Virus record (IMG/VR): IMGVR_UViG_3300020473_000031
Span: 1-60,606 of that record
From: a virus
Strand: one strand, 5' to 3'
Length of the DNA stretch: 60,606 bases
Both the position numbers and the translations under genes were made by a program. How positions within the stretch are numbered: position 1 is the first letter of the stretch; each line of letters begins with the position of its first letter. The notes under the pieces are model-generated. The model saw nothing but the letters and a program-made list of their open reading frames with translations, was not told the origin of the DNA and did not search any database. Below, piece by piece: positions 719 through 57,202 of the stretch.

Positions 719-3700
719 TTAAGCGAATGATTGGATAGTCAAGTTAGTAACATCATTAGCACCAACGGTTTCTCCTTTCTTGAAGAACCCATCAACATTA
801 TCAACGGTGACTGAAGTAGCACCTAGAGCAGTGATAACTCCTGTTGAACCAGAAGTACCACCTGTAACAGTTGCACCAACTTCCATTGTTGTAATGTCAG
901 ATAGAGCAAAGGTGGCATTAGTAAAGGTAGTTGAAGTATTAAGTGAAGCTCCTGTACCATGTATAGCAGAAACTGGGATTGTTGCTCCATTACCATGTAT
1001 AGCAGAAACTGGGATAGTAGCATCGCCACCGCCACCTGTAATAGTTATAACTTCGGATGCTGCATAACCAGATCCATCAACATTAATAGCAACAGCAGTA
1101 ACATTTCCACTAGCATTAGCAGTTACATCAACTGTCAATCCTGTTCCTGATCCAGAGGATGTTGTAGCAACTCCAGTTGTAGTTCCTTCAGTATATCCAG
1201 TACCAGCAGCAGAGATAGTTCCAAGAGTCTTAACTCCAGATGCATTAGCATTTGTTAGTGTAATAGTTTCAGAAGCAGCATAGTTCAAACCATCATCAAC
1301 GATAGTTACACCAGTTACAGCACCTGAACCATCAACAGTAATAGAAACTGTTAATCCAGTACCAGATCCGCTTGCTGTTGTTGCAACAGTTCCTGCAGAA
1401 TATCCAGTACCAGCAGTAGCAATTGATCCAAGAGTCTTAACACCAGATGCATTTGCGTTAGCAATAGTTAATGTCTCACCATTTGCATATCCAGATCCAG
1501 CAGCATTAACTGAGACATTAGTAAGAACACCGTTTGTAGCAGTAATATCAACAGTAGCACCTGTTCCTGATCCAGAGGATGTTGTAGCAACTGCAGTTGC
1601 TGTTGTATATCCTGTACCACCTACCAAAGTACCAAGGTTAAGTGTAGAAACACCACCAAGGTTAGGGTTAGTAATAGTTAATGTATCACCAATTTCATAT
1701 CCAGAACCAGCAGCATTTAAAGCGATTGCAGTAACCACTCCACCTACTGTAGTAGTATCAACAGTTAACCCAGAACCAGTACCTCCACTAGTAGCAACTC
1801 CAGTTGCATTACTAAATCCACCAACACCATCAGTAGCAATTGATCCAAGTGTTACAACAGATCCAGGAGTAGGATCTCCAGATAGATTCAATACTAATGT
1901 AGTTGAAGTTGCAAGGTTATTAAGCATTGCACTCAATTGCTCAAATGCATTATCAAGTTTTGCTTGTACTCTTGCTTCTGTATAATATTGATTAGTTCCT
2001 TCAGAAAGATCAGTTGTAGATTTACTTGATAGATCTAAGTTTGCACCAGTTGCAGCTGCAACTCTTGCATTTGCTCTTGTGTCTGTGTAATAAAGATTTG
2101 TTGAACCTTCAGATAAATCATCAGTATCGGCAGCAGCAATACGTGCATCTGCTCTAGCATCTGTGTAATAAAGGTTACTACCCTCAGTGAGATCTCCTGT
2201 ATCAGCAGCAGCAATACGTGCGTCTGCCCTAGCATCAGTATAATAAAGGTTAGATGATCCTTCAGTTATATTGTCAGTATCAAACTCAGTAAAGTCTATT
2301 GCTAAGTCAGCAGTAGCAAGTTTAATACCTGTACCATATGTAAAATGAGTTCTAGTTCTAGTAGCAGTCGTGAATAGATTAGTAGATCCTTCAGTTACGT
2401 TATCTGTATTAATATCAGACTGAGTTACAGAAAGAGCACCTGAACCATCATGTGTAATACCTGTACCATATGTGAAGTGAGTTCTAGTCCTTGCAGCAGT
2501 TGTGAATAGGTTAGTAGAACCTTCTGTTACGTTATCAGTATTTACATCTGCCTGTGTAACTGTAAGAGTATACGTTCCAGCAGCATCATCATAAACCTTA
2601 GTGATACCTGTACCAGCAACTATAAGAGCATTAACTCTGTCATCTACACGTTCGTTAGTGAAGTATAAATTAGACCCTTCTGATAAATCACCTGTATCGT
2701 GGTTGGAGATATCTGAAACTTGACCAGTTACATTACCAGTTAAAGCACCAGTAATAGCAGTTATATTTGCAGCATCTGCAAAAATTCCTTGCCATCTAAC
2801 AGAAGATGTACCAAGATCGTATGTGCTATCTGCAGCAGGATTAAGATCCTTAGCAGTAGAAGTAGCACCTGTAAGATTACCAACTAAGTCTGAAGTAATC
2901 TCATTAGCAGCAAAGTCTCCAGATCCGTCACGTATGACTAAGTTGTTTGCAGCATTTGAACTTGCAGAAGCAACGTTAATTGTTGTGTTACCAGAAACAC
3001 CATCAGCATTAGTAAGTGTAATACCAGAGTTAGCTGTAACACCAAATGTTCTATGAGCATAAGTGTTTGCAGCAGTCCTGACCATGTATCCAGTACCAGT
3101 CTGTGCAGCAAGTGCAGTTATATCTGCATCATCGTAAGTAGTTGTAAGAGTAACAGCAGCACTACCATCAATGGATACGTTACCATTTACAACACCGTCA
3201 ATTGTTAATACTCTAGCAGTCTTCCATGCATCAGCAGTAGTTGCGTTACCTAAGAATCCAGCACCTGCACCAGTAGCACTAGCAGCAGTAATTTGATTAG
3301 CAGCAAAGTCTCCAGAAGCATCACGATTAACAACTGTAGATGCTGTATTAGCACTTGCAGTTGTCATATTATCAAGGTAATCAACGTTTAAGTTGTTAAC
3401 CTTAGTAGTAGATGCTATTGAGAATGGAGCAGTACCAGTACTTAAATTTGATATAACCTGACCATCAACTGTTATAGTACCATCTACATTTACATTATTA
3501 TCAACATCAAGTGCAGTACCAGCAGCAGTAAGATTTAAAGAACCAGCTCTAAGAGCACCGTCTGTACCAGCTAATACTTCAGAAGTATTTGTTGCATCTG
3601 TTATGAATGAGAATTGGTTTGCTGATCTGTCATATCCAAAGAACCCAATTTTAGCAGAGCCGTCGTAGTAACGGAACTCAACACCACGATCCTTAGCATC

Positions 3701-15437: not shown

Positions 15438-16970
15438 TTAGAACTCGATTACGATTTTAATGTCTTCTACTTGGTCGTTTGCACGACTGATTGATCTTCT
15501 ATTATCTATGTATACAACCTGACCACTATTTGACTTAATCTCTGGTTTAGCATATCCAGAGTTAAATTTCATACCAAGATCATATTCAGTATTGTTAATA
15601 GTTCTAGAAGAGGTATTTGGTACAGCAGGGAAGTTAACATCTGGTTGTCCAGCAGCACCCGAAGTTGATCCACTAATAACATTAGATCCATCAAATTCGT
15701 TTTGAGTACCTGTAACTTCAGGGAAAATACCATCAACAGCATTCTGATAATATTTCAAAACTTTAGTTGTAGCATTCCATGAAATAACTCTTGCACGAGA
15801 GGTAACATTTGTACCACCAACAACACGTGTCTGGGTGATGATTTCATCAGGAACGTAATTACCTTGGAATGTTGGTGCAAAAATAACTGCTTTAGTAGCA
15901 GAAACCGTTAAATCAGAAATCAACTCAGTTGTACCAAACTTGAGTGGATTTGTGATTAAACCAATACGACGGTAATCATTGTCAATAGGGAAGTCACCAG
16001 CACCCTCATCATATGAGAGTTTAGCATTAATCATAACTCGGAATGCACCAAGTTCAACAATAGTATCATTTCCATGACCACCTGGAGGAGGAATGATCAC
16101 ATCGACTTGACCACCTTGACCAGTACCAATACCAGTAATATTATCAACAGAAATTTTACCAAAGGTATATCCAGTACCACCAGAAGTAACGGTAGCAGAA
16201 ATGATCTTACCACCATCAACAACAATACTAACCCTACCGCCAGTTCCATCACCATTAATGGCGACGTTATCGTAAGTGCCGTTGTTGTAACCAGCACCAG
16301 CAGCAGTAATAACAATAGTGTCAATTTCACCCTCAACTGCGTTCGTTTTCACTGCGTCATTAGTAAAGACTGGCATATAGTCATTACTAAAAAACTTAAG
16401 AACAGATGCAACTGGAATAGTATACATATACTTCCAACGATAACCATCACCAGTTGTAACAATAGAGGTACTAGTACCAGTAGGTTCAACTGTAGAGGGT
16501 TTTCCGTTAGGATCGCTAGGAGATGTTCCGTTATAGATGCACTTATAAACTTGATACTGAGAATTTACAACATAAAAATCAGAATCATATAGTTTAGTAG
16601 CACCAGAGGCAGCAGTTCTACTAGGAGAATAGTCATGTCTGTACATGTCATAGGTAAAACCTAATCCACCAGTAGTTTGTTCTGGGGAAACCCAGTCAAT
16701 CCTACGAGCAACCTGTACTGTATCAGCAGCAAGAACTCTTTTCAGAGAGATCATATCATCATATGATCCAGAAAATTCTGCAAAAGAATCTACTGCTTGC
16801 GGTGGTGAGTTTTCATTGTCCCAACTTTGTGGTCTTCCAATGAATAAGTATATGCGATCACGAGAAGTTCCAGCAGCATCATCACTTTGAGTCGCATCTG
16901 GACCTTCAAGAGCTTTTATGAATTTCTGTGCCGAAAATATTCTAAATTGATCAGTTAATAGAGCTGCCAT
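15438..16970 (-). CDS. 8: Baseplate wedge subunit gp8
   Basis: A 510-residue protein with the N-terminal pattern of T4-like cyanophage gp8: 'LTDQFRIFSAQKFIKALEG', 'DRIYLFIGRPQSWDNENSPP', and later 'SDPNGKPSTVEPTG' and 'GDGYRWKYMYTIPVASVLKF'. T4 gp8 (334 residues) is a dimeric baseplate-wedge protein. The extra length here comes largely from a GxGY beta-repeat insertion (about residues 220-290, with 'TAAGAGYNNGTY' and 'VTSGGTGYTFGKI') and a C-terminal extension. It sits between the copper-site proteins and the DUF4815 gene and has its own putative late promoter just upstream. Confidence 0.85.
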   Translation of the reverse strand: MAALLTDQFRIFSAQKFIKALEGPDATQSDDAAGTSRDRIYLFIGRPQSWDNENSPPQAVDSFAEFSGSYDDMISLKRVLAADTVQVARRIDWVSPEQTTGGLGFTYDMYRHDYSPSRTAASGATKLYDSDFYVVNSQYQVYKCIYNGTSPSDPNGKPSTVEPTGTSTSIVTTGDGYRWKYMYTIPVASVLKFFSNDYMPVFTNDAVKTNAVEGEIDTIVITAAGAGYNNGTYDNVAINGDGTGGRVSIVVDGGKIISATVTSGGTGYTFGKISVDNITGIGTGQGGQVDVIIPPPGGHGNDTIVELGAFRVMINAKLSYDEGAGDFPIDNDYRRIGLITNPLKFGTTELISDLTVSATKAVIFAPTFQGNYVPDEIITQTRVVGGTNVTSRARVISWNATTKVLKYYQNAVDGIFPEVTGTQNEFDGSNVISGSTSGAAGQPDVNFPAVPNTSSRTINNTEYDLGMKFNSGYAKPEIKSNSGQVVYIDNRRSISRANDQVEDIKIVIEF

Positions 16971-17008: not shown

Positions 17009-20000
17009 TTACGAACGGAGTTGTGCAGAATACTCAATTCTACTGAGTCTATAAGTAGCACCACCGTTACCCATTATATCTTCTCCACCCATAACTACTT
17101 GAGCAGCTGCTCCACTTCCAGTAGAATCACCAACTGCATTAACGAAAGTTACTGTTGGGTGTGTATTATATGTATTGTCAACAGATTGCACAATTCCATA
17201 ACCACCATTGACAATAGTACATGAAGCAACTTGGTCTTGTGCAGATGTTAAATTAACAGTTGCTGTACATTGTATATCACCAACATTCTCAACTGTTACT
17301 GTTGGAACTGCTGTATAGTTAGTACCTGGACTTTGAATTATAAAATCAACCACGGTACTATCATGTGAAAACTCATACAAGTATCCACCTATACCTACAT
17401 TAACATTACCAGTATTAAACGGAGTTATATCCTGAACTATAAGTACAGAATTAACTGGATCCCAAGAAACTACAGTTGCTCTAACACCAGAAACAGATCC
17501 AGTAACAATTTCGTTAACACCAAAATTCAATCCATTAGAAAGATTAGGATCTAAGAATAATTTTATAAGTGCAGTATGTGGAACACCATCAGTTAAAGTA
17601 CCTGCATCACTAACTGTAGCATACTTAAATGGCAAACTACCATCTTTAACCTGATCACCAACTTGGAATAGGGTTGTATTTTGACCACCTTGGGTTTCTT
17701 CAATACCATACAATGAAGTATGGATACCACCATCAAGATTTATTTGATTTTCATAATCAGTTCCTGCATTAACAAGATCTATAATTCCATCTCCAGCACC
17801 ATCTAATTCATCGTTGTCTTCAAATTCTTTATCTATTATTTGAGATATTGGTTCTGTTAAAGCTATAATAAATGCACCTTCAGATGAATCTACATCTAAA
17901 AGAACATGAGGATTAAATCCACCTGGAGCAGATGCTGCAAGACCAGCATCAAATTGAACAATAGCATCTTCAGTTGATGGTATTCCAGCATCAATAAATG
18001 CCAATTCATCAACTTCAAATGTTACTAATAATTCTCTAGTTGTTGGATCCCAGTCATATACCTTTGCAACCTTATTACCTTCATTTTCAATTTTTCTAAT
18101 AACTCTATCATTAACATTAAACTTATAAGTTGAATTACCCTCACCATCAATCTGTCCAGCATCAAGAACAATTCTCTGGTCAAAATTAAAATTAACTCCT
18201 CTAGTTAAACCAGAGAATTTACCTTTAGATTTAGCAGTATATGCAATGGTTTCTTTGTTAAGAATTAATTCACCAGAACCAGGGAAAGCATCAGTAGAAT
18301 CAACATACAATTCAGTATCAGATTTTAATACATCCTTAACAAGACCAGTGAGGAAACCAGCAACAGAATTGTATGCCTGTCTTGCTCTTGACTTACGTTT
18401 TAAGTTAACTAATTTTGTGAATATTACTTTAGGTTGATCAATATATCCGCTACCTGGATCTGTAATTTCAATATCAGTAATAACACCTTGAGCAACTTTT
18501 GCTATAGCTTTAGCACCAATACCTCCACCACCATTAATAAGAATATAAGGAGGTTCTTGATAATATTCACCTTCATCTACAATATTAATATTAGTAACTC
18601 TACCAAGTACATCAATTTCAGCAGCACCTTGAGCACCTTGTCCTCCACCACCTTCAAAGATAAGTGTTGGTGGTGTAGCATAATCTCTTCCACCTTGTAA
18701 TAGTGATAAACCTGTAACTGTCTGTACAGTAGGTGTTCCTGTAGCACCAGTACCCTCTCCACCTAATATTCTTGCAGTTGCTGCACCAAAATAATTATCA
18801 CCTTTTTTGGTCATCTTAACATAACTGACAGTACCATCAGTATTCAATACAACATCTCCTGCTGCACCATCTGGGAATGTATCTGGTTGAGCAGGGACAA
18901 TATCACCCTCAAACAATGGAGTACCATACATTGTTGGTCCAATTGCATAAGGATAAGTTGGAACACCACTACCGTTTTCTGTTAAGAAATAAGCATAAGT
19001 TCCATTAGGATACTCAGGAGTAACAGCAAATTTACCATTATGTTCATCCAAAGTACCAACACTAGTATCCCAAATATAATCTTGAACTAAATCTCCAATT
19101 ACATATCCATCTTGAACTGTTCTTATACCAATACCAGAAGTTGTATAACCAAAGGTATACAAAGCAAGAGGTGCAGTTACAGGTACTTCAAATCTTATCT
19201 CTCTTGCAGTAGCAGTATTAAACCCACTAATATAAGCACTATAAGTTACTTCGGATCCTTCTAACCAATAGGTAATACCTGGTCCTTCAAAAAGATATGT
19301 TGTATCTGGTGGAGTACCAGCATGCCATCCATCATCAGTAGTAGATATTAATAACTGTTCATTATCATTACTAGAATCATTCTGTTGGAATACATATGTT
19401 TTTCCTCTCCATAAACTTAAGAAAGGAACAGTGCTACCATCGATATTAAACTCACCATTAGCAACTGTTACAGCATAAGTTATAGTTTCTGCAGTAACTA
19501 CATCGGGTCTAGCACCAGCTAATTCATCACCTACTCTATATCTAAATCCAGTAACTTCTCTAGCAACGGTATTAGTACTATCATATCCATAAGGTCCGTA
19601 AATAGGATATCCATCAAATGCCATTCCTAATATCTTAGAATGACCATCAGCATGCCGTGAATAATCTATAGTAGAAGGATCAGATTCATTACTCTGATAA
19701 TAGTCTGTAATATAATAATCATTAGGTAAAGGATCATCATCTATTTCTAGATCCAAAGTCATATATCCTTCATGACCTTCATACCCAGACATATATCTGT
19801 GATACTTACAGTAATAATATATTCTACTATTTTCATCACCATTCATTATGAATAAAGGTTTAAACTCATTTTCATAATCTGTAGATGGTGCTTCTGTTAT
19901 TCCTGTACTCTTATAATATAAACTACCACCATTTAACAACCCATCCTGTGTGGTACTAAACTGCATAGGATGTCCATGAGGATGATGATCAGACGGTTGA

Positions 20001-21511
20001 TTAGTTGAATCGGATTGATTCCAAATAATTAAATAATTTCTCTGTACCTTAATATTTTCTGGTGCAAAATAATATTGTCCCTCAACAAAAGGACCAAACT
20101 CTGTAGAATCTGGACCAAACTCAATATAAAAAATACCGTTAGTTAACGTTGTTGGTGGTTCTAATATTTTAAAACTAAACCCAGTAGATCCTAAAACAAC
20201 ATTATTCTCAGCAAACACATCAGACCCACTTATATTTCTAACATAGATGTGGGTTATAGTTCCTAAATTATTTCTTACAATCTTTGCAATTTCTGCTTTA
20301 GCAGTAGTAGCTATAGCATCTATAGTTCTACCTCTCTCAACTACACCTAAAGTTTCATCAACATTACCAACTTCAAACATCAAGTTATCAAATTCTGTTT
20401 TAATGTTCCAAGTAAAAGGTCTAATCTTACCCCAATCAAACACACCATTATGTTCAGCAAACTCAGAAATCAATCTAGATGATTGATAGTAATAAGTATT
20501 ACCATCTACTACTGCATCAGAAGAAGTGTTACTTTTAATATGTGAATGTTTAACTGCATCAATTGAAAATCCAGGAGTAGGATTTCCAGCTTGACCCCAT
20601 TCTGGAGTATGAAGTTGAACTCCATTTGCCATTATACCTAATGACTTATTAAGTTGCTCTTGTCTAGCATCAGGATGAGGAGCATCTTTACCACCCCTAA
20701 AAATATAAGTTTGATCAAATGAACGATCTACTAATGATCCACCACTACTAACTGCACCAAAAGTAGCAGACTTAAAGGTATGAGCACTAGTATTAGTTGC
20801 AGGAGCAACACCCAATACTTGTACGGTAATAGTTGTAGATGTTGTAGAAAGAATTGGTATAGCAACACCTGCTACTGGATCAGTTGCACGAGGATATGTA
20901 TGATCAGTACCATGATCATCTAAAGCACAAGTAAACGTTAATGAATCTGTTGCAATCTTAATACTATCACCTGTAGTATAACTATGACTACCAATGGTCA
21001 TTTCCATTAAACCAGTAGTAGGGTTGTAGTTAATTGCTGAAGGTGTATACTGAGCAAGAGTACCACCAGATCCACCACCAGGAGCTCTTTCTGCTAAAAG
21101 GGGTGTTGGTTTTGGATGATTATCACTTTGTATTCTTAATCTATCACTATTAGAAGTGAATAATCCAGTTGTAGGTGAATTGGGATGTGACTGCCATATC
21201 CTATTAATATCAAAAGATTGTATGACAGTTGGTGTATCTTGTGTTGGTATTATTTGCAATCTAAGAGGATCATATCCAAGACCTCTTTCTAAAACTCTAA
21301 CATGAACTATCCTTCCAGATAACTCATCAATAATTGGATATAGAAGTGCTTCCTGTGTCGGAGTACCACAACCAGTAACAGTTAATCTTGGAGGATTGGT
21401 TATATCATAACCTTCACCACCATCAACTACTTGTATTGCACGAACACCAAATTTTTCATCAAATATGGGTTCAATTACAGCACCGTATCCAGGAACAGTT
21501 CTTGTTGACAT
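17009..21511 (-). CDS. Virion protein with cupredoxin-like and YHYH domains
   Basis: A 1500-residue modular protein. In order: N-terminal GxGY-type repeats (about 1-110); one copy of the 'LTFTC...YPRATDP' repeat (about 165-240, Tyr at about 206); a cupredoxin-like domain (about 480-600) whose apparent type-1 copper ligands are H514, C568, H571 and M574 in 'YYYCKYHRYMSG'; a YHYH-type core ('GMAFDGYPIYGPYGYD', about 628-643); a second cupredoxin-like segment without the Cys-His-Met loop (about 674-797); the second half of the YHYH domain (about 809-864); then more GxGY repeats and a C-terminal structural region. It starts 6 bases after the 408-residue gene. It is probably a baseplate-associated or fibre protein. 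Copper binding is a prediction from the residue pattern. Confidence 0.75.
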   Translation of the reverse strand: MSTRTVPGYGAVIEPIFDEKFGVRAIQVVDGGEGYDITNPPRLTVTGCGTPTQEALLYPIIDELSGRIVHVRVLERGLGYDPLRLQIIPTQDTPTVIQSFDINRIWQSHPNSPTTGLFTSNSDRLRIQSDNHPKPTPLLAERAPGGGSGGTLAQYTPSAINYNPTTGLMEMTIGSHSYTTGDSIKIATDSLTFTCALDDHGTDHTYPRATDPVAGVAIPILSTTSTTITVQVLGVAPATNTSAHTFKSATFGAVSSGGSLVDRSFDQTYIFRGGKDAPHPDARQEQLNKSLGIMANGVQLHTPEWGQAGNPTPGFSIDAVKHSHIKSNTSSDAVVDGNTYYYQSSRLISEFAEHNGVFDWGKIRPFTWNIKTEFDNLMFEVGNVDETLGVVERGRTIDAIATTAKAEIAKIVRNNLGTITHIYVRNISGSDVFAENNVVLGSTGFSFKILEPPTTLTNGIFYIEFGPDSTEFGPFVEGQYYFAPENIKVQRNYLIIWNQSDSTNQPSDHHPHGHPMQFSTTQDGLLNGGSLYYKSTGITEAPSTDYENEFKPLFIMNGDENSRIYYYCKYHRYMSGYEGHEGYMTLDLEIDDDPLPNDYYITDYYQSNESDPSTIDYSRHADGHSKILGMAFDGYPIYGPYGYDSTNTVAREVTGFRYRVGDELAGARPDVVTAETITYAVTVANGEFNIDGSTVPFLSLWRGKTYVFQQNDSSNDNEQLLISTTDDGWHAGTPPDTTYLFEGPGITYWLEGSEVTYSAYISGFNTATAREIRFEVPVTAPLALYTFGYTTSGIGIRTVQDGYVIGDLVQDYIWDTSVGTLDEHNGKFAVTPEYPNGTYAYFLTENGSGVPTYPYAIGPTMYGTPLFEGDIVPAQPDTFPDGAAGDVVLNTDGTVSYVKMTKKGDNYFGAATARILGGEGTGATGTPTVQTVTGLSLLQGGRDYATPPTLIFEGGGGQGAQGAAEIDVLGRVTNINIVDEGEYYQEPPYILINGGGGIGAKAIAKVAQGVITDIEITDPGSGYIDQPKVIFTKLVNLKRKSRARQAYNSVAGFLTGLVKDVLKSDTELYVDSTDAFPGSGELILNKETIAYTAKSKGKFSGLTRGVNFNFDQRIVLDAGQIDGEGNSTYKFNVNDRVIRKIENEGNKVAKVYDWDPTTRELLVTFEVDELAFIDAGIPSTEDAIVQFDAGLAASAPGGFNPHVLLDVDSSEGAFIIALTEPISQIIDKEFEDNDELDGAGDGIIDLVNAGTDYENQINLDGGIHTSLYGIEETQGGQNTTLFQVGDQVKDGSLPFKYATVSDAGTLTDGVPHTALIKLFLDPNLSNGLNFGVNEIVTGSVSGVRATVVSWDPVNSVLIVQDITPFNTGNVNVGIGGYLYEFSHDSTVVDFIIQSPGTNYTAVPTVTVENVGDIQCTATVNLTSAQDQVASCTIVNGGYGIVQSVDNTYNTHPTVTFVNAVGDSTGSGAAAQVVMGGEDIMGNGGATYRLSRIEYSAQLRS

Positions 21512-21517
21512 ATCTTA

Positions 21518-22744
21518 TTAACCAACTACGTTAATAGTTCCTTGCATTGCTGCATGGAGTGTACATTGATAATAAAGAGTACTTGGAGCATCCATTGGAA
21601 CTGTCCAATAAAGAACTGCAGTTCCACTACCAGTCTGACCTGTAGTATAAGGAGTTCCAGTTAAACCTTGAGTACTTTGAATTCTAAATGGGTGTGCAGT
21701 TGCTTGGACAGTATTATCAAAAGCATATGTTAGACCTCTCATAACATAAAGAGTTGCATCAGCAGTAGCAGATGCAAATCCAGGTCCATTAAACGTATAA
21801 TCTGATGCACCATTAGCATTCAATTCCCACCATGTAATAGGACTTCTAGTCGCAATCCAATTAGTACCATTAAAGAATAGTGAATCACCTTGAACTGCTC
21901 CACTCAAATCAGTATCAGTTAATGCTGATAGCGTAGTAGTTAAAGTACCACTGAAATCTACTGTTAATGTATCCCCAACAACTGTCGTTGTTATATTAGT
22001 TCCACCAGCAATAGTTAACGTATCTGCCTGTGCATTTGCTGTTGTAGATCCAGTATCACCATCAACGGTGGCCCATGTATTCAATGATGAAAGACCAGAT
22101 TCATCATCTTGAGGAGTCCATTTACCAGCAGATGAACTCCACTTTAAAACTTGTAAATTTGTAGGAGCAGCAGTTGTTGTATCTACATCCCCTAATAAAT
22201 CAATACTAGAATATTCAGTTGCTATCTTTGCTCTAACATCCCCAACACCACCAGTAGTGATATTAATATTCACATAAGGATTATCATCACCATCAACAGT
22301 GAAAAAATAACCTCCGTAAGATGCAGCAGAAGGTGCATTTCCTAATGCGGAAAATTCATTCTTATACTTAACTTTGGTTGGCATATCAATAACACCATCC
22401 GCACCTGCAAAAGTATTAGTAATACCACCAACACCAATAGTTAAATTACCAGTACCATTTGCAGCAATATTAATATTGCCATTACTAGAAGAAACTATAG
22501 AGTTACCATTAACGTCTAATGATGATGTTAAATTAGCATAGTCAGATGGAGCGAATTGAGATCCATTGTACCTTAATACTTGCCCTACTGCAGGGTTAGT
22601 AACATCAACAGTTATATTAGTACCATTACCAATAGCAGAATATATTTCATTAAAATTATCGTTTATCTTGTCGCCTCCACCACGCAGGGTATCCCCTGTG
22701 TTATCATTAGCTACCGTACCAAGATTTAGTGATTGTTTGGCCAT
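21518..22744 (-). CDS. Fibre-like virion protein with C-terminal amicyanin-like cupredoxin domain
   Basis: A 408-residue protein. The N-terminus (LNLGTVANDNTGDTLRGGGD, then INDNFNEIYSAI) is the common start of phage fibre or structural proteins. The middle is a beta-repeat stalk. The last 105 or so residues read as a cupredoxin: 'YVMRGLTYAFDN', 'TAHPFRIQS' and 'LYYQCTLHAAMQGTINVVG'. The set H351, C394, H397 and M400 matches the Cys-x2-His-x2-Met loop of amicyanin-type blue copper proteins. No signal peptide is visible. Position and N-terminus argue for a virion protein rather than a free electron carrier. The fold assignment is by eye. Confidence 0.75.
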   Translation of the reverse strand: MAKQSLNLGTVANDNTGDTLRGGGDKINDNFNEIYSAIGNGTNITVDVTNPAVGQVLRYNGSQFAPSDYANLTSSLDVNGNSIVSSSNGNINIAANGTGNLTIGVGGITNTFAGADGVIDMPTKVKYKNEFSALGNAPSAASYGGYFFTVDGDDNPYVNINITTGGVGDVRAKIATEYSSIDLLGDVDTTTAAPTNLQVLKWSSSAGKWTPQDDESGLSSLNTWATVDGDTGSTTANAQADTLTIAGGTNITTTVVGDTLTVDFSGTLTTTLSALTDTDLSGAVQGDSLFFNGTNWIATRSPITWWELNANGASDYTFNGPGFASATADATLYVMRGLTYAFDNTVQATAHPFRIQSTQGLTGTPYTTGQTGSGTAVLYWTVPMDAPSTLYYQCTLHAAMQGTINVVG

Positions 22745-47967: not shown

Positions 47968-49992
47968 TTAGAAACAAGTCGAGCTGTTTGGATCACCTGT
48001 ATTAGTAATCGGAGTTACCTCAACCAAAGTTGGTGTTTGGTTAAATGTTTGTGGTGTCAAACTATTTAGAGGAATAGTGGTAGGTGGAATAGTTCCAATT
48101 GGTGCTACCGTTACTTCAGGATTAACTACATTAATAATAGTACCAGGAGTTGACGCTGGAATTGTCGTATTATTGCCTGGTATAAAGAGTACTGGGAGGT
48201 TTAAATTCGTAGGTAATTTAGTAGGATCAATAACAGTACCTGTTCCTGTTACAGGATCGGTTAAATCCATGTTTGTTGAATCAGGAACATCATCGCCTGC
48301 ACCAACAATATTAATAGGACCTATACATATTTCCCCAGTATCGTAATTAATACTACCAGCAGAATTATTAGTATAAACCTTCTTATTTCCAGTATTATAG
48401 TATGTTTTTAGTTTACCAAACCCATCATCTTCAAATAATTGATCAATACCTGGTCTATCAGCAGTCCTAAAGTTTCCAGAAAGTATAACTGGCTCTTTAT
48501 TACATGCTCCATCTGTATTACTAGGAGCACTATTATAAAGAGCACCACCAGTAGAAATACAATAAGTATTTGTCTGATTGGCATCTGCTCTAATATACTT
48601 TAAAAGAGAGGTTTGAACAGAAACGTCACTAACTGCCTTATCTGCTAAAGCAATTGCTTTTTGGAACTGTTGGTTTCTAAACGTAGAGTTGAAATTATTG
48701 ATTTGAGTTTGTGTAGCCCAATCATTAATAGCATTTTGAATATTAGTCTTAATATCAGATGTATTGCTTGTTACACCAGTATCATAAAGAACAAAGACTT
48801 TAGGATAGATATAAAGCTCATCTGGATCAATAACAACAGGATCTATAGATGCCATTGAATATGATCTTAATTTTGTCTGCAAATCTTTCTTAGACTGGTC
48901 ATTCAAAAGAGATCCAGTCTTAGTTTTAACAGCAACGTATACTTTACCGTATATTGGAGGTGTTAAAGAATCTCCACCATAAGCAACAACAGACTCAGCA
49001 TTAGAATAAAGATTTTTAGTAATAACAGCGTAATCCTGTGCTGTTACTGCTCTATATTGAGAAGCATAGAATCTTGGAGCCATATACTTAATAGATTCTA
49101 CTGTTTCTGGATCATCACCCATTTGAGAACGTTCTTTAGTAGTAAGAATAATATCAGCGTTAGAAACTGATACATTATTACTATCTTCCATAGATCCAAT
49201 ATAACCAAAACCCGTCACTTCATTTGCTTCTTTCCCAGAACAGGTCAAATACTCAAAATTAATAACTTCACCATCTTTTAATTTTCTACCAATACTATCA
49301 TCACCAAATCTTACTCTATACCTCATATCCTCACCTTCAGAGATGAAATAACTACGTGTATTACCAGTTAGATTAGTAACAGTTTCTACAGCGTTATAGA
49401 GGTCTGAAGTAGTAGAAGATTCGTTTGCTTTAACTGTAACCTTTAAAGTCTCTATATCAGCGTCTTCTGAAGGAATTTTATATTCTTGAGTCTGGAAAGT
49501 ATTAACAGTATATGAAAAATTAATTACAGATCCTTCATTGATAGTAACACAATCAAAAATCGCTTTACCAGTTACAGTATCAACTTCTGCAGTAATATCT
49601 TCTAAAGTATTCCAAATATAATTACTACCTCTTGCAACTGGACCCTTTTTCAAAGTAACTGAACTAGGATATGCCTGATTAGTCTGAGATGTTTGTACTT
49701 CTAAATTTATTGCTGCTTTAGAGCATGTAATTGATCTAGGAACATAATTTAGTAGTTTAGCAATATTAACAATATTATCTCTAATCGTAGCTGATGGTAA
49801 AAATACCTCATTCATTGCCATATTAGACATAAATGCTGAATAATAACTATTATACGCTAAAACATCAACAAGATATGATAGTGTAGATCCATTGAAATCA
49901 TAATCTGTGAACTCATCTCTAGTCCTCAAATATGAATTTATAGAAGCTTTGATATCTTCAAAGTCTAATGCTGTTAACTTATTCGGTTGCAT
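47968..49992 (-). CDS. 6: Baseplate wedge protein gp6
   Basis: A 674-residue protein, close to the length of T4 gp6 (660 residues). The N-terminal segment ('LTALDFEDIKASINSYLRTR', 'YLVDVLAYNSYYSAFMSNMA', 'LPSATIRDNIVNIAKLLNYV') is characteristic of T4-like gp6 (baseplate_J-like). gp6 forms the ring of the baseplate that clamps neighbouring wedges. The C-terminus (from about 560) is Pro/Thr-rich and low complexity, which looks like an extra tail. It lies between gp25 and the giant gene in the standard T4 order. The start is the ATG at 49992, 1 base after the gp25 stop. Confidence 0.88.
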   Translation of the reverse strand: MQPNKLTALDFEDIKASINSYLRTRDEFTDYDFNGSTLSYLVDVLAYNSYYSAFMSNMAMNEVFLPSATIRDNIVNIAKLLNYVPRSITCSKAAINLEVQTSQTNQAYPSSVTLKKGPVARGSNYIWNTLEDITAEVDTVTGKAIFDCVTINEGSVINFSYTVNTFQTQEYKIPSEDADIETLKVTVKANESSTTSDLYNAVETVTNLTGNTRSYFISEGEDMRYRVRFGDDSIGRKLKDGEVINFEYLTCSGKEANEVTGFGYIGSMEDSNNVSVSNADIILTTKERSQMGDDPETVESIKYMAPRFYASQYRAVTAQDYAVITKNLYSNAESVVAYGGDSLTPPIYGKVYVAVKTKTGSLLNDQSKKDLQTKLRSYSMASIDPVVIDPDELYIYPKVFVLYDTGVTSNTSDIKTNIQNAINDWATQTQINNFNSTFRNQQFQKAIALADKAVSDVSVQTSLLKYIRADANQTNTYCISTGGALYNSAPSNTDGACNKEPVILSGNFRTADRPGIDQLFEDDGFGKLKTYYNTGNKKVYTNNSAGSINYDTGEICIGPINIVGAGDDVPDSTNMDLTDPVTGTGTVIDPTKLPTNLNLPVLFIPGNNTTIPASTPGTIINVVNPEVTVAPIGTIPPTTIPLNSLTPQTFNQTPTLVEVTPITNTGDPNSSTCF

Positions 49993-49993
49993 T

Positions 49994-50419
49994 TTAAGTA
50001 GGTCTCTGTAATACGAATGCTATAGATTCCACAATAGGTAAGCCAACAACCTTATATCTAACGGATACTGATACTTTACCTGAACTATAATATGGAGTTA
50101 AGTTACAAGATATTAATTGTACTCGACTTTCATACTGATTAATGGTATTTATGATGTCACTTTGTATTGAATCGACTGAGAATGCATCTAACTGTTCAAA
50201 AAGTCTTTGATATATTCCACAACCAACATTACTTCTAAATAATTTTTCTCCTGGTCTAGTTAAGACTAGATTTTTAATAGATTGTTTAATTGAATTTTCA
50301 TTTGTTACCTTTGAACAATCATCAGTAAACCTATTTTTAGAGAATGCCATATTAATATCAGCAAACCGCCTGGATTTACCTTTAGTTAATTCTGCTCCTG
50401 TTATTGGTTTTAATGCCAC
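49994..50419 (-). CDS. 25: Baseplate wedge protein gp25
   Basis: A 141-residue protein with the gp25/GPW lysozyme-like fold pattern: an N-terminal 'RRFADINMAFSKNRFTDDCS', the conserved 'NLVLTRPGEKLFRSNVGCGI' and 'LFEQLDAFSVDSIQSDIINT'. T4 gp25 sits at the sheath-baseplate junction. The start is GTG (50419-50417), which forms a TAGTG overlap with the stop of the upstream 74-residue gene; a purine-rich AGGGAAGGTGA stretch precedes it. Confidence 0.88.
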   Translation of the reverse strand: MALKPITGAELTKGKSRRFADINMAFSKNRFTDDCSKVTNENSIKQSIKNLVLTRPGEKLFRSNVGCGIYQRLFEQLDAFSVDSIQSDIINTINQYESRVQLISCNLTPYYSSGKVSVSVRYKVVGLPIVESIAFVLQRPT

Positions 50420-50667: not shown

Positions 50668-50675
50668 TTATTTAT
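50668..50675 (-). promoter_or_regulatory. Putative late promoter (ATAAATAA) of the structural operon
   Basis: ATAAATAA on the minus strand, about 25 bases before the 74-residue ATG, overlapping the stop codon of the oxygenase gene upstream. A GACGTATACCGTC near-palindrome (50651-50663) lies in the leader. This motif probably starts the transcript that covers gp25, gp6 and the giant gene. Confidence 0.6.
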
Positions 50676-51370
50676 CTATTAAACATAACGTTTTTCACAT
50701 CCTTCTTTATTTGGTTCTGTTTTTCCACATCTCGTCTTTTTTTATTCTCAGTCATATCTGCCATTGTTTTAGAATCTAAAAAATGTGTCATACACCATCT
50801 ACCCATATTTTGACCTGCATATTTTGGATGCAATCTAACTTCCAGAACCTGATGCCTAATAAATGATGGGAAAAGTATCATTCTATTGCTAACTACTTCA
50901 ATATCAAGCTTATAATCAGGAAATATAAACTGCCCTCCTTCAAATTTTTTAGGTTCTTTAAAAAACCAAAATAGACCAGTAACCGTTGATGCATCTGTAT
51001 GTGCTCTATAATAGTTGTCACTTTCATAATATGACAATAATGTAGCATCATAGTCGCAAGTCTTAATAAAATTGGTAAAAAACCAACTTTTTCCCTGTTG
51101 TAAGACCTCTTCTGTGAAAATTTTGCGATTTAGGCGTAAAATTTCGCATTTTTCCCGTTTTTTTGCAAAATATTCGTCTAAATGAATGCATTTATTCATT
51201 TTTAGGAAGCCATTCTCATCAAAAGCACTATAAGAGTCGACTGGATCTAAGAAAATGTCCTCTTTATACAGTTTATCGACCTCATTCCACAATATTTCCA
51301 TCTCTTCTTCATCAAAGTAATCATCAACAACGATGAATGGAAACCCATGTTCATGTGTTTGTATTTGCAT
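50672..51370 (-). CDS. 2OG-Fe(II) oxygenase-like protein
   Basis: A 232-residue protein with a prolyl-4-hydroxylase-type double-stranded beta-helix pattern: HxD in 'YYRAHTDAST' (H124, D126), a distal His in 'FPSFIRHQVLEV' (H173) and a candidate 2-oxoglutarate-binding Arg in 'MGRWCMTHF' (R191). Family members use Fe(II), O2 and 2-oxoglutarate to hydroxylate proteins or small molecules. The C-terminus (from about 205) is a Lys/Arg-rich tail. It follows the 198-residue oxygenase by 2 bases and belongs to the ho1/oxygenase cluster. The substrate is unknown. Confidence 0.82.
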   Translation of the reverse strand: MQIQTHEHGFPFIVVDDYFDEEEMEILWNEVDKLYKEDIFLDPVDSYSAFDENGFLKMNKCIHLDEYFAKKREKCEILRLNRKIFTEEVLQQGKSWFFTNFIKTCDYDATLLSYYESDNYYRAHTDASTVTGLFWFFKEPKKFEGGQFIFPDYKLDIEVVSNRMILFPSFIRHQVLEVRLHPKYAGQNMGRWCMTHFLDSKTMADMTENKKRRDVEKQNQIKKDVKNVMFNR

Positions 51371-51372
51371 AA

Positions 51373-51969
51373 TTAATAATTGCTCTCGTTTCTATCGAAG
51401 ACTATGTTAAAAGATAAACTCATTCTATCATGATTTGTCTGATTTGTCGTTATACCATGCATCAACCAACCAGGAAAGAAGGCAAGCAGACCATTACTAG
51501 GAACTATTTGCTCTCTTTCACATAAACCTTTATAGCAAAAAGATGAAGTCATAGCAGGAGTTGGATTTTCAAAGTATATATTACCATCAGATCCATCAGT
51601 TTTATAATAGTATACTCCAGACACATCACTAGTACCATGATGATGGCAATGTCCATAATTACCTTTTTTAAATAAAGAAATCCATGAACTTCCAATATAT
51701 CCATTAGTATGAGGAAAACCTATAGCTTTCATATAATGGTCTAAATGATATACAATTTGATCTCTCAAAAAGTTTAGATCATTTTTAATAATGAAATTAT
51801 CTTTAAAAGTTGGGTCTGAAAGGAAATGGGTTGCACCCCAATCCCCTTTCATTCCAAATTCAACTTCTTTTACTGCTGTAGTAATTTCATTTTGTATTTC
51901 ATCGAAATTATCAACCTTCTCCACCCAATATATTGGAGTTGGATACAAATTAGCTAAAGTGCCTTTCAT
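51373..51969 (-). CDS. 2OG-Fe(II) oxygenase-like protein (HxH type)
   Basis: A 198-residue protein of the phage-type 2OG-FeII_Oxy_5-like group: 'LYPTPIYWVEKVDNF', a His cluster in 'GNYGHCHHHGTSDVSGVYYY' (H107 to H111), a distal His in 'FFPGWLMHGITTNQ' (H171) and Arg in 'NHDRMSLSFNI' (R182). The first metal ligands appear as an HxH-type cluster rather than HxD, which is usual in this group. Its ATG overlaps the ho1 stop by 4 bases, so ho1 and this gene are expressed together. The substrate is unknown. Confidence 0.8.
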   Translation of the reverse strand: MKGTLANLYPTPIYWVEKVDNFDEIQNEITTAVKEVEFGMKGDWGATHFLSDPTFKDNFIIKNDLNFLRDQIVYHLDHYMKAIGFPHTNGYIGSSWISLFKKGNYGHCHHHGTSDVSGVYYYKTDGSDGNIYFENPTPAMTSSFCYKGLCEREQIVPSNGLLAFFPGWLMHGITTNQTNHDRMSLSFNIVFDRNESNY

Positions 51970-52643
51970 TTTCCAGTAATAGTTCCCCAGAGTACTTTAA
52001 GTAGTCCTTTTTTAGCATCTCCCTGAAGTTCATCAAAAATATACATGTTAAGTCTGAATGCATAGTTTGCTTCAGCAATTAATGAATTGACTTGATTCTC
52101 ATTAACTTCTAATCCATCTAGAACTGCCCTGTAATCGGTTTTAAACGCCTTTGCATCATTTATCATAGGAAAGTCGTAAAAGTGTAATCCCTCTCCTTCA
52201 GGGGGATTTAACGCCTTCTTAGCAATACCCTTAAGGATTTGACCACCTGATAAATCACCAATATACCTAGTATAATGATGTGCTATAAGAAGATATGGAT
52301 CCTTCTCTGCAATTTCATTAAGTCTATAGCAATATGTGTTACAAGCCTCTGATGGGGTTAACATATCTCTGTACATAGGACCATAGTAATATCTAAGATC
52401 TCTATTAAGAAATGCGGTTCTATAAAGTTTAGCACCCCACTGCTTTAATACACTTGCTAGAGGATCCTTAGTTTCCTCTATCCTCTGCTCCATTGTCTCA
52501 TAGACATAATAAAAGTCCGTGATTAGTTTACGGTACTCTTCTGGGTTTAATACTCCTTTAAGGAATCCAGCAACAAATTTAGTATTTTCTGCTGCATTAT
52601 GAGATTTTTTAGTACCTTCTTTTAATCTAGTTGATAAAGTCAT
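51966..52643 (-). CDS. ho1: Heme oxygenase (phage ho1)
   Basis: A 225-residue protein. It has the proximal heme His at H15 ('GTKKSHNAAENTKFVAGFL') and the distal-helix 'YTRYIGDLSGGQILKG' (GDLSGG at 129-134), and its length and layout match cyanobacterial/cyanophage HO1. It opens heme to biliverdin IXalpha with release of iron and CO. In cyanophages biliverdin feeds bilin synthesis, usually with pcyA or pebS; neither lies in this window. It overlaps genes on both sides by 4 bases (ATGA), which ties it to the oxygenase cluster. No frameshift or missing key residue is visible. Confidence 0.95.
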   Translation of the reverse strand: MTLSTRLKEGTKKSHNAAENTKFVAGFLKGVLNPEEYRKLITDFYYVYETMEQRIEETKDPLASVLKQWGAKLYRTAFLNRDLRYYYGPMYRDMLTPSEACNTYCYRLNEIAEKDPYLLIAHHYTRYIGDLSGGQILKGIAKKALNPPEGEGLHFYDFPMINDAKAFKTDYRAVLDGLEVNENQVNSLIAEANYAFRLNMYIFDELQGDAKKGLLKVLWGTITGK

Positions 52644-54106
52644 AATTCTCTATGTTTTTTTAGGAAAATGTTGCCTGATATAGCACATCTACCGTTACAC
52701 TTATTAGGTGGAACCTTGTGCTTCATTCTACTTTCAAAAATAACTACCTTACCTGGTCTTGGATCTATTATACCCTCTGGATTCTGAAATAGCAAGGGTG
52801 ATGATCCTTCTGGAACATTGACATAATAAACAAAGGAATAACAACTAATTCCATGATTATGCCATTCTATATCTTCACCTTCCTTATATGTAACTGCCCA
52901 TGTCTCTACTGTCTTAAAATCATGCTCTGGAGGATCAAACTGATCATCAATAATTCGTTGAACCCAATCAACCATAGTTTTAACATGCTCTTGACTTGAA
53001 TACAAGTCCCAGTCAGTCATTGTGCAATGTGCTTCTTCAGGATTTACTCCTGTCTTACCAGATCCCAAATCTTGTATGATATAAAATAATTTCTCATTAA
53101 TATCATTATATGGTGGATAATGATATTCACCAATTTTCTTACCTGTATGTTCTGGTAGAGATACTATAGAAGTACTAGTACTACGATGATTTCTTTCTAA
53201 TGTACCTGTTTCTACAAAGTCACTTAAATCCGTATTCATTTCTACAGGTACTTTTGTATTAGTATTGAGAACTATATTACCAGATATAGAAATTCTATAT
53301 TCATTATTATTAAAGAATGGGTATACCTGATGCTTTAAATTAGATGGGAATAGAAGCATAGTACCTTCTAATGGTGATCCCATATCATACCAAAATGAAT
53401 GACTAGCACCAAAAATATCAGTATAATGAAATTCAAATGATCCATTTGAAGCATGACCTGACATCTTACCTGCTCTTTTAGCAATGGCAACTTCTGGATT
53501 TGATCCTGTTTCGTTCTGTTCCTCATTAGTATAAGGAATTTTCATCCAAATAACAAAACTAAAACATCCAGTATGGTCGTGAGTAGGGTTATATTCACCT
53601 TGACGCTGATAATTTACCCACCATTTATGTAAACAAAAAGGATGTAGGTTATTAACCGCAATTTTATCTCCTGGATTACCAAAGTTATGCATATAATCTT
53701 GCATCAATGGATCCAAGACGTTAATGAAAAAGTAATCTTCCTTATCTTCAAGATAATAACTGTCCATTACATGACCAGCAAGCATCTCACCACAAGTTTC
53801 TCCCTTATTACCAATCATATCCCAAAGGAACTTCATATGATCCGCACTAAGTTTTTTCTCCATCCACCCACCAGTAAAAGGTACGATAGGTCTAGAAGAC
53901 TCTTCCTTACTATTGTAATAATCTACTGCATTTGCTGGTTTTAGATATAAATCCGATTCTCCTTGAGTATTCCTTGGTACTGGTGGAACACCTTTAGGAA
54001 TTCTATAATCATATGATTCATCAGCAATACCAGAATTACCCTCCCTTTGTATAACAGAGGATTTAGATTCTCTATCAGGGTTCTTTTTCTGATTAATAAT
54101 GCCCAT
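52640..54106 (-). CDS. Tandem-domain 2OG-oxygenase-like protein
   Basis: A 488-residue protein with two oxygenase-like halves joined by a linker. Half one has H176/H178 ('EYNPTHDHTGCFSFVIW'), H259 ('FPSNLKHQVYPF') and R271. Half two has H416/H418 ('IEWHNHGISCYSFVYYV'), H463 ('ESRMKHKVPPN') and R473. The two halves look like an old duplication and both keep the His-His-Arg set. The N-terminus (1-60) is extended and disordered-looking. The ATG is coupled to the 50-residue gene by TAATG, and its stop overlaps ho1. The substrate is unknown; the linkage suggests work alongside ho1 in the same infection stage. Confidence 0.8.
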   Translation of the reverse strand: MGIINQKKNPDRESKSSVIQREGNSGIADESYDYRIPKGVPPVPRNTQGESDLYLKPANAVDYYNSKEESSRPIVPFTGGWMEKKLSADHMKFLWDMIGNKGETCGEMLAGHVMDSYYLEDKEDYFFINVLDPLMQDYMHNFGNPGDKIAVNNLHPFCLHKWWVNYQRQGEYNPTHDHTGCFSFVIWMKIPYTNEEQNETGSNPEVAIAKRAGKMSGHASNGSFEFHYTDIFGASHSFWYDMGSPLEGTMLLFPSNLKHQVYPFFNNNEYRISISGNIVLNTNTKVPVEMNTDLSDFVETGTLERNHRSTSTSIVSLPEHTGKKIGEYHYPPYNDINEKLFYIIQDLGSGKTGVNPEEAHCTMTDWDLYSSQEHVKTMVDWVQRIIDDQFDPPEHDFKTVETWAVTYKEGEDIEWHNHGISCYSFVYYVNVPEGSSPLLFQNPEGIIDPRPGKVVIFESRMKHKVPPNKCNGRCAISGNIFLKKHREL

Positions 54107-54260: not shown

Positions 54261-54800
54261 TTAATCTCCAATAAAAACGTCTTTACTCCCACCTGAGATA
54301 GTTGATAAGCAAGGCCACGTAGTTGTGTTCTCACCTAAATCGTCACCTATTCTACCAGCAAGCTTGCCTGTAATCCATACAGTCTTCGTACTAGAGTAAC
54401 ATCTCCGTTGATGTCCCTCTGAAGACTCTCTACCACCTGATATACCCTCCGTGCAATGCCACGCAGGACTTGATCTGACAGTAAAACACTTTCTACCAAC
54501 GGAAGTAGTAGTGTGTTTTGTTTTAGTAGGGTGTAGAACAAGCTCATCTCTATCTATGATAGGGATCTTGTTGTTTATTATAACACTCCTTTCTAACTTT
54601 TGTCTAGGTTTTTGTTCAGTAGGTTTCCAAGTTGTAACAGCATCCATCTGTGCTACGGGTTTTGGGTTAATTTGCCCTGCTGTTGGTGAGTGAGGGCATC
54701 CACCAAGTACTCCTCCACCTAGTCCTGGGTGGTGTGAAGATCCACTACCACTACCATGACCGCTACAATTACCTTTAAATAACGCTGCTCCTATTGCCAT
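54261..54800 (-). CDS. PAAR-like spike-tip protein
   Basis: A 179-residue protein starting at the ATG at 54800-54798, which shares a base with the stop of the 800-residue gene (TAATG). The N-terminus is 'MAIGAALFKGNCSGHGSG' then 'HHPGLGGGVLGGCPHS', a Cys/His/Gly-rich stretch. The C-terminus has 'VWITGKLAGRIGDDLGE' and 'STISGGSKDVFIGD', the 'ITxGSxxVFIxG' type of ending of PAAR-repeat proteins that cap contractile-tail spikes (T4 gp5.4 is one). PAAR tips bind a metal with Cys and His. The middle (about 45-115) is unusual for a PAAR and may hold an insertion. An upstream in-frame Met at 54860 is less likely because it would overlap the 800-residue gene. Confidence 0.72.
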   Translation of the reverse strand: MAIGAALFKGNCSGHGSGSGSSHHPGLGGGVLGGCPHSPTAGQINPKPVAQMDAVTTWKPTEQKPRQKLERSVIINNKIPIIDRDELVLHPTKTKHTTTSVGRKCFTVRSSPAWHCTEGISGGRESSEGHQRRCYSSTKTVWITGKLAGRIGDDLGENTTTWPCLSTISGGSKDVFIGD

Positions 54801-57202
54801 TATGGTAAATACATTCCTGTATCGTAAGGGTTTCCGTATGCAGCGATTGCTGCGTTCCAAGCTGATCTAGCTCTGGTTAGATCATTCCATATTTTCATCT
54901 TTCCACTTGCAGTCCACGGTTTGCATCCATCCCCAAGTAACCCAGACATGGTAATTGTCTGATTTGGACCAGGAGTTGAACCTGCAGGTGCAGTACATGA
55001 TATATGTCCACACCCACTTTCCACGGTACTACATGATAATGTTACATTAATATCTATACTATCTTGGGGATCTGGTCTATATTGCTTCATCATATACTTA
55101 GTATACTCTGACGCATGAGGTAATTCACTCACTCTTCCCTGTACTGTAGTGACATAACGCTCATCATGGTTACTAAATTCAGGAATAATCTTTTGTGTTA
55201 TGTCATCTATGTGCTGCATTCTACTTCTATGATTCTCATCACGGAGATATTTCTTAAGAATATCTTTTAAATCCGTAGGTATTACAGTACTATTCTCTAC
55301 TATGCTCATATCTAAGTCATCAATTGCGTTAGTTTCCTTTAATGGGTTTGTAGCACTGTCACTATACATCCTTTGAGCCTTTTGTCTAACACGTTGAGCG
55401 TCAGGATCACCTTTAACACTGAAGTCTGCTACCTTATATTGATCTAAAAAGTTCTGAGGTAGGTTTTCTATTGCTCTTAACGTAGCAGCAGTTGATACTG
55501 AGTCACCTTCTGGCAAAGAAAGTAGGTATGCTCTTATATCATCCGCATATGTCGATCTATATGCACCGTTATCTATGGTACGATCTACTACCTTATGTAC
55601 ATTTCTTATCTGTAATTGCGGTGGAGATGAGGAAGAATACCCAGATCCTCCGTCAGTTACCTGAATACCAGTCATCGCACCGCCTACAAATTGAGCATTT
55701 ACAGTTGCTCTCTTACCTGTGGTGGTTAAGGGGGCGGTAATATACACATCTGGTACAGCATCTAGCGTTTGCCAACCAGATCCACCATCAACTATACTAA
55801 TATTATCTACTTGTCCATTAACAATAGACATAGTAACCTGTGGTACTCTTAGGTCATGGAACCTATTTGGTGCATCTTGATCTACATCAGCAGTAACATA
55901 CTGTATAGACTTATTCATAAACTCATAAAAACCTACAAGATGTGCTCGGTCTGGAATACCCCAACCTGCTTTTGCTGTAATTACGTGGTTCCTATCAGAT
56001 GTATACTGTGTCTCTTTAACAAAATTACTACCACAAGCATCAATATATGCTATATGGTATGGAAAATTATCTAAATCGGTATGAAATACACGAGTTATTA
56101 TATGACCATTGATTGTATCACCTGCTCTTAGTACATCAAACCCTTCTTGACCCTCTGTTGCTTGTACTGGACCTACTGTTTTAATTTTTATGTTATTAGT
56201 AAGAACAGTTGTACTATTATCTGGAAGGGTATGAGTATAACTTAGAGGAAATGTGGTTCCCACGGTGTAGCCCGTCCCAGGCGATAAGACCTCTGTAATA
56301 CGCCAGGACGTGCCTGAAAAGACTGTTGGGTCTGGATCATCATCAAATATAGGTTTAATCTCAACTTTAATCCTAAGACCTTGTGCAAGACCAGAATCTA
56401 ATTCAAATATCTTGAAGTCACTGAACGCCTCGTCGCCAGCCTGGTAGGGGTTCTGTGCCGTAGTATACTCAGTACCAGTCGTTTCATTCTCATTCCAACT
56501 ATCAGTATAGGTTACTCCATCATATGACAACTCAAAGTCTAGACATCCATTAGGTAACGTGGTTGAAAGCGAGTCATAACTGAACGTTAGTTTAGGACTT
56601 TGAGTATCTACTGCAAATAAAGTCGAATGAGGGCAGTCGGGGTCGTCTGAATCCCTTCCTTCATTTCCCACAGTATACGATATTGTGGTCGAAGCGGGGG
56701 TGCAGTCAAAATCACCACAAGGAAAACAAGTAGATGATGATGAATATTCTCCTCCACTATCTGTATTATCTGTTTCTTCTGTCTCTATATGATAGCAAGG
56801 TGTTCCTAATATACCTGCTTTATCGGTAGTATCAAATAAGTATGACATCCATGTATCAGAATACCCAAAATCAAAAGAAAGACCTGTAGGGTAGTAGTCA
56901 TATACAAATAAACAATCTCCAGCACTCTCTCCTTCTTCTAATGACTCAACGTTTAAGCGAGTTGCCTTACCACACATACCATCAGTTAACATGTCTGCTG
57001 GATTTCCACCTTCGTTGCATACTAGATCAGATTGATACTGAACAGTTGTGCCATCTCTCGCAGGTACGTTGTAAGGTAGATTACCTATTCTAATCGTTGC
57101 TTGAGGGTATTCGATAAATTCTACACTAACACCATCAGCAGTACCTGGATGAGATCTCACACAGGAATTTGTATATCTTTCTCCAACAGGTTTACAACCC
57201 AT
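54800..57202 (-). CDS. Large Cys-rich virion structural protein
   Basis: An 800-residue protein with many Cys residues in the first 200 and last 100 ('STCFPCGDFDCTP', 'DDPDCPHS', 'NVTLSCSTVESGCGHISC'). The centre has GxGY-type repeats ('IVDGGSGWQTL', 'VTDGGSGYSSSS'). Residues about 560-690 are helical and charged ('DQYKVADFSVKGDPDAQRVR'). It overlaps the 105-residue gene by 11 bases and the PAAR gene by 1 base. This layout next to PAAR suggests a tail-hub or spike-related role, but no known domain is certain by eye. Confidence 0.72.
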   Translation of the reverse strand: MGCKPVGERYTNSCVRSHPGTADGVSVEFIEYPQATIRIGNLPYNVPARDGTTVQYQSDLVCNEGGNPADMLTDGMCGKATRLNVESLEEGESAGDCLFVYDYYPTGLSFDFGYSDTWMSYLFDTTDKAGILGTPCYHIETEETDNTDSGGEYSSSSTCFPCGDFDCTPASTTISYTVGNEGRDSDDPDCPHSTLFAVDTQSPKLTFSYDSLSTTLPNGCLDFELSYDGVTYTDSWNENETTGTEYTTAQNPYQAGDEAFSDFKIFELDSGLAQGLRIKVEIKPIFDDDPDPTVFSGTSWRITEVLSPGTGYTVGTTFPLSYTHTLPDNSTTVLTNNIKIKTVGPVQATEGQEGFDVLRAGDTINGHIITRVFHTDLDNFPYHIAYIDACGSNFVKETQYTSDRNHVITAKAGWGIPDRAHLVGFYEFMNKSIQYVTADVDQDAPNRFHDLRVPQVTMSIVNGQVDNISIVDGGSGWQTLDAVPDVYITAPLTTTGKRATVNAQFVGGAMTGIQVTDGGSGYSSSSPPQLQIRNVHKVVDRTIDNGAYRSTYADDIRAYLLSLPEGDSVSTAATLRAIENLPQNFLDQYKVADFSVKGDPDAQRVRQKAQRMYSDSATNPLKETNAIDDLDMSIVENSTVIPTDLKDILKKYLRDENHRSRMQHIDDITQKIIPEFSNHDERYVTTVQGRVSELPHASEYTKYMMKQYRPDPQDSIDINVTLSCSTVESGCGHISCTAPAGSTPGPNQTITMSGLLGDGCKPWTASGKMKIWNDLTRARSAWNAAIAAYGNPYDTGMYLP

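Follow-up and report, generated by a model that had tools for sequence, protein, structure and literature searches.

A predicted blue-copper domain in the baseplate protein gp9 of a T4-like cyanophage

A baseplate protein of ocean viruses that infect cyanobacteria, corresponding to the long-fibre socket of phage T4, carries a C-terminal domain of ~105 residues that is predicted to adopt the cupredoxin fold and retains every residue expected to hold a type-1 copper ion, so that the virions may carry copper. We consider it most likely (probability of about 0.6) that the domain is a copper-holding stability or attachment module at the fibre joint, although copper occupancy, the place on the particle and the role are inferred and no metal has been measured. 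In the literature we searched, which did not include most subscription journals, no paper describes a cupredoxin in a phage tail or baseplate protein, and searches for plastocyanin-like domains in phage tails or cyanophages likewise returned nothing relevant, which is only weak evidence of novelty.

The domain forms the C-terminus of gp9 in a baseplate gene block

The stretch of DNA that we analysed (the window) is a virus record of 60,606 bases, and by DNA its nearest named relatives in the region of interest are Synechococcus phages (ACG-2014b) at about 70% identity. An earlier note, made from the sequence alone, had described a complete type-1 copper ligand set in a 'fibre-like' virion protein of 408 residues. 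We confirmed the four residues at exactly the positions given there, but the term 'fibre-like' is vague and the protein can be assigned more precisely. Its first ~110 residues match the T4 gp9/gp10 N-terminal domain (Pfam T4_gp9_10_N, E 1.6e-11), and residues 1-407 match the phage family 'baseplate wedge tail fiber protein connector' (phrog_677, E 1e-190), identifying it as gp9 of a T4-like cyanomyovirus. In line with this, families called baseplate wedge subunit are matched by the products at 15438-16970 (also Pfam T4 Gp8), 17009-21511, 47968-49992, 49994-50419 and 54800-57202. The relevant features are as follows.

21518..22744, minus strand: gp9, baseplate wedge tail-fibre connector, 408 aa
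22412..22738, minus strand: T4 gp9/gp10-like N-terminal domain, residues 3-111
21521..21838, minus strand: predicted C-terminal cupredoxin domain, residues 303-408
21692..21694, minus strand: codon of H351, first His ligand
21563..21565, minus strand: codon of C394, Cys ligand and only Cys of the protein
21554..21556, minus strand: codon of H397, second His ligand
21545..21547, minus strand: codon of M400, axial Met ligand
19784..20080, minus strand: second domain copy with its own H, C, H, M set, residues 478-576 of the neighbouring 1500-aa baseplate protein (17009-21511, minus strand)
19157..19471, minus strand: third, ligand-less domain copy, residues 681-785 of the same neighbouring protein, just before the best-matching stretch of its YHYH domain

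The stretch 21518-21832 highlighted in the note corresponds to residues 305-408 plus the stop and contains the loop 'YYQCTLHAAMQGTI'. Of note, the C-terminal domain matches 342 public phage records, nearly all of them cyanophages, and was found almost only in marine phages. The N-terminal part also matches more than a thousand enteric and other phage records over a short stretch only, and in enteric T4-like phages only the first ~40-70 residues match.

The four putative copper ligands are conserved and are kept or lost as a set

The whole protein contains one Cys (C394), two His (H351 and H397) and five Met. To address whether the ligand set could have arisen by chance, we compared 79 full-length gp9 sequences (the window plus viral contigs; pairwise identity of the C-terminal part median 77%, minimum 64%), which had been fetched with patterns not covering these residues. 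Strikingly, H351, C394, H397 and M400 are unchanged in 79/79 sequences, and 72 of the 79 have no other Cys. Synonymous codons are mixed at the His and Cys ligands (CAT 19/CAC 17; TGT 24/TGC 12; CAT 22/CAC 14 in 36 homologues), so that what is conserved is the residue. In a 24-member alignment of the wider family (A1), reaching ~30% identity to the window, only seven columns are invariant, H351, P352, G369, Y392, C394, H397 and M400, four of which are the ligands (about 7e-6 for four named columns, ignoring relatedness).

We next examined 417 distinct domain hits and found that 334 have all four residues, a fraction that is somewhat biased upwards because some of the loci were fetched with patterns that touch the ligand loop or the first His; most of the remaining hits are one paralogous copy in the neighbouring 1500-residue protein. 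The first His is present in 338 of 340 hits that have the Cys-His loop, but in only 10 of 74 that do not. Since the sequences are related, a Fisher test on these counts does not yield a true probability, but this is the pattern of a metal site kept or lost as a whole. The invariance of the ligands in two further alignments (A2 and A3) is partly by construction, because members with all four residues were chosen for them, and our claims therefore rest on the sets not chosen in this way. The earlier note had considered that the ligands might be kept by chance, and had named a fold other than cupredoxin and random ligand loss among homologues as observations that would speak against its proposal. 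The predicted fold is cupredoxin (see below) and homologues do not lose the ligands at random, and hence ligands kept by chance are effectively excluded.

Structure prediction and sequence profiles point to a cupredoxin with an amicyanin-type loop

AlphaFold2 modelling of residues 293-408 with 44 sequences gave a confident model (mean pLDDT 93.2, pTM 0.84). When this model was searched against the PDB using Foldseek, all 17 matches at E<=1e-3 were copper proteins, namely three-domain copper nitrite reductases, rusticyanin, pseudoazurin, amicyanin and a laccase, although TM-scores by query length are moderate (0.42-0.55). Independently, a profile built from the 24 members of A1 found copper nitrite reductase (1.1e-5), amicyanin (2.2e-5) and plastocyanin (4.1e-4) by sequence alone. 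In our reading of that alignment the loop ligands fall together, while the first His is shifted by two residues against that of amicyanin, so that its equivalence rests on the model and on co-conservation. In the model, H351 (model residue 59) comes just before a strand, C394 (102) ends the penultimate strand, and H397 and M400 lie in the following loop, which is the cupredoxin plan and is consistent with a type-1 site, albeit without measured ligand distances.

The short C-x2-H-x2-M loop is that of amicyanin (TIGR02657; PDB 1aaj, 3ply), and NCBIfam amicyanin is the commonest weak match in the family (13 of 24). However, the window scores only 12.2 bits against a curated equivalog cut-off of 110 bits, and amicyanin is a free periplasmic electron carrier in which the first His is followed by Asn, whereas here the domain is fused to a baseplate protein and H351 is followed by Pro, which is invariant in A1. 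Asn (or Ser) at this position is usual but not defining in cupredoxins; its replacement would be expected to remove one hydrogen bond to the Cys sulfur and to shift the potential. The best fold and sequence matches are cupredoxin domains of copper nitrite reductases (PDB 2dv6, 6hbe, 9cck), and 9cck has the near-identical stretch 'YICTLHPWMKGTISV', but in these proteins the domain is part of an enzyme with a second copper type and there is no enzyme here. The window protein does not match Pfam Copper-bind (PF00127), and six of the 24 relatives match it weakly (best E 0.0011).

As such cyanophages also encode a free plastocyanin, PetE, with a complete type-1 set, we were wondering whether the gp9 domain could be a recent fusion of the phage's own plastocyanin. 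This was rejected, because the free plastocyanins of five such phages, which are encoded by a separate gene and reach the Pfam Copper-bind cut-off, have C-x2-H-x4-M and a PHN motif.

The module recurs in other phage tail proteins and in bacterial proteins

More distant members lie in tail proteins of a Pelagibacter phage, a Methylophilales phage, S-SCSM1 (annotated long tail fibre), P-SSM5 and S-SCSM2R, and in many viral contigs. The S-SCSM2R protein (positions 2794-3300 of locus L082) is annotated PetE, but it is a member of this tail-domain family with the C-x2-H-x2-M loop, next to tail-like genes, and not a plastocyanin of the usual phage type. A search of predicted viral structures (BFVD) added a P-SSM2 protein annotated as putative proximal tail fibre and others; small 'beta-sandwich' proteins of Pithovirus- and Marseillevirus-like giant viruses also match the fold (E about 1e-6). 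A first search of cellular genomes found nothing, but a second search with a closer sub-family found eight bacterial relatives. These HPF-type cupredoxin domains of Bacteroidota, Acidobacteriota and other bacterial proteins share the HPF...YYxCxxHxxM module with all four residues and occur mostly at the C-terminus of proteins of unknown function, several of which have lipoprotein- or signal-like starts, suggesting a module used outside the cytoplasm.

Within the window, an iterated profile search revealed the two further copies in the neighbouring baseplate protein listed above. The ligand-bearing copy is also supported by an alignment of 21 relatives, but its structure model was poor (pLDDT 55.7), which made its fold search meaningless, and its fold therefore rests on sequence only. 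The YHYH domain of this protein (Pfam E 6e-16) lies next to the two cupredoxin-like copies, and YHYH and cupredoxin modules may be functionally linked. Notably, the ligand-less copy and a PSS2 protein have the fold signature without the ligands, indicating that the fold can be used without metal. This raises the possibility that in gp9, too, the fold serves only as a binding module and that the four residues are kept for folding or for contacts. We regard this as the least likely alternative, since the ligands stay invariant at ~30% identity and are lost together, and since other Cys and His are largely avoided in gp9.

A possible copper-holding module at the fibre joint

In T4 the C-terminal part of gp9 holds the long tail fibre, so the domain should be displayed on the outside of the baseplate at the fibre joint. 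Virion proteomics of S-SM1 found 41 proteins (PMC3037559), but whether gp9 is among them was not established here. Most likely, each chain binds one copper and the metal rigidifies a small beta-sandwich used for fibre attachment or host contact. Copper is scarce in the cytoplasm where phages assemble, and its loading is unexplained; in our model it would take place outside the cytoplasm or at lysis.

The main, though unlikely, rival is that the four residues form a site for another metal, or for copper as a purely structural ion, in the way that iron stabilises some phage tail tips and fibres (compare the Ferrojan Horse literature). Joint conservation of the four residues would fit any metal site. 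On the other hand, Cys-x2-His-x2-Met with an upstream His on this fold is the type-1 copper set in the known proteins that match, and a Met ligand is atypical for Zn or Fe structural sites.

Type-1 sites are built for electron transfer and adsorption of several marine cyanomyoviruses is light-dependent (PMC2984593), which led us to consider a redox-active switch in which reduction, oxidation or light acts on gp9 and controls fibre deployment or adsorption. This reading is possible but unsupported. S-PM2, which is probably one of the light-dependent adsorbers, has no hit to the domain profile and no H-CxxHxxM set in the 95 kb examined, which include its tail genes. Moreover, no electron partner is known outside the cell, and the domain also occurs in phages of non-photosynthetic hosts. 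It remains conceivable, but doubtful, that marine T4-like cyanophages and many other aquatic phages carry functional blue-copper centres on the virion surface as a redox-active part of fibre deployment or host contact; if the stoichiometry of gp9 is as in T4, presumably six trimers, this would amount to about 18 per particle, and more if the copy in the neighbouring protein also binds.

A conserved copper site on the fibre connector would make the virions copper-bearing particles, add copper to iron as a metal of phage tails and offer copper, chelators and redox state as simple handles for testing adsorption. Our analysis also puts a predicted fold and a testable function on an unannotated domain found in more than 300 phage records.

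Other features of the baseplate block

Between gp6 and gp9 lies a single open frame of 8397 residues (22768-47961, minus strand) with many repeats of a unit like 'TFTCxxDxxxTxHxYPRxTDP', each with a conserved Cys, and a YHYH-like stretch ('GWAFDGNPIYGPYGY'). In addition, three proteins matching 2OG-Fe(II) oxygenase families lie in a cluster inside the baseplate block (50672-54106, minus strand) and could modify virion proteins.
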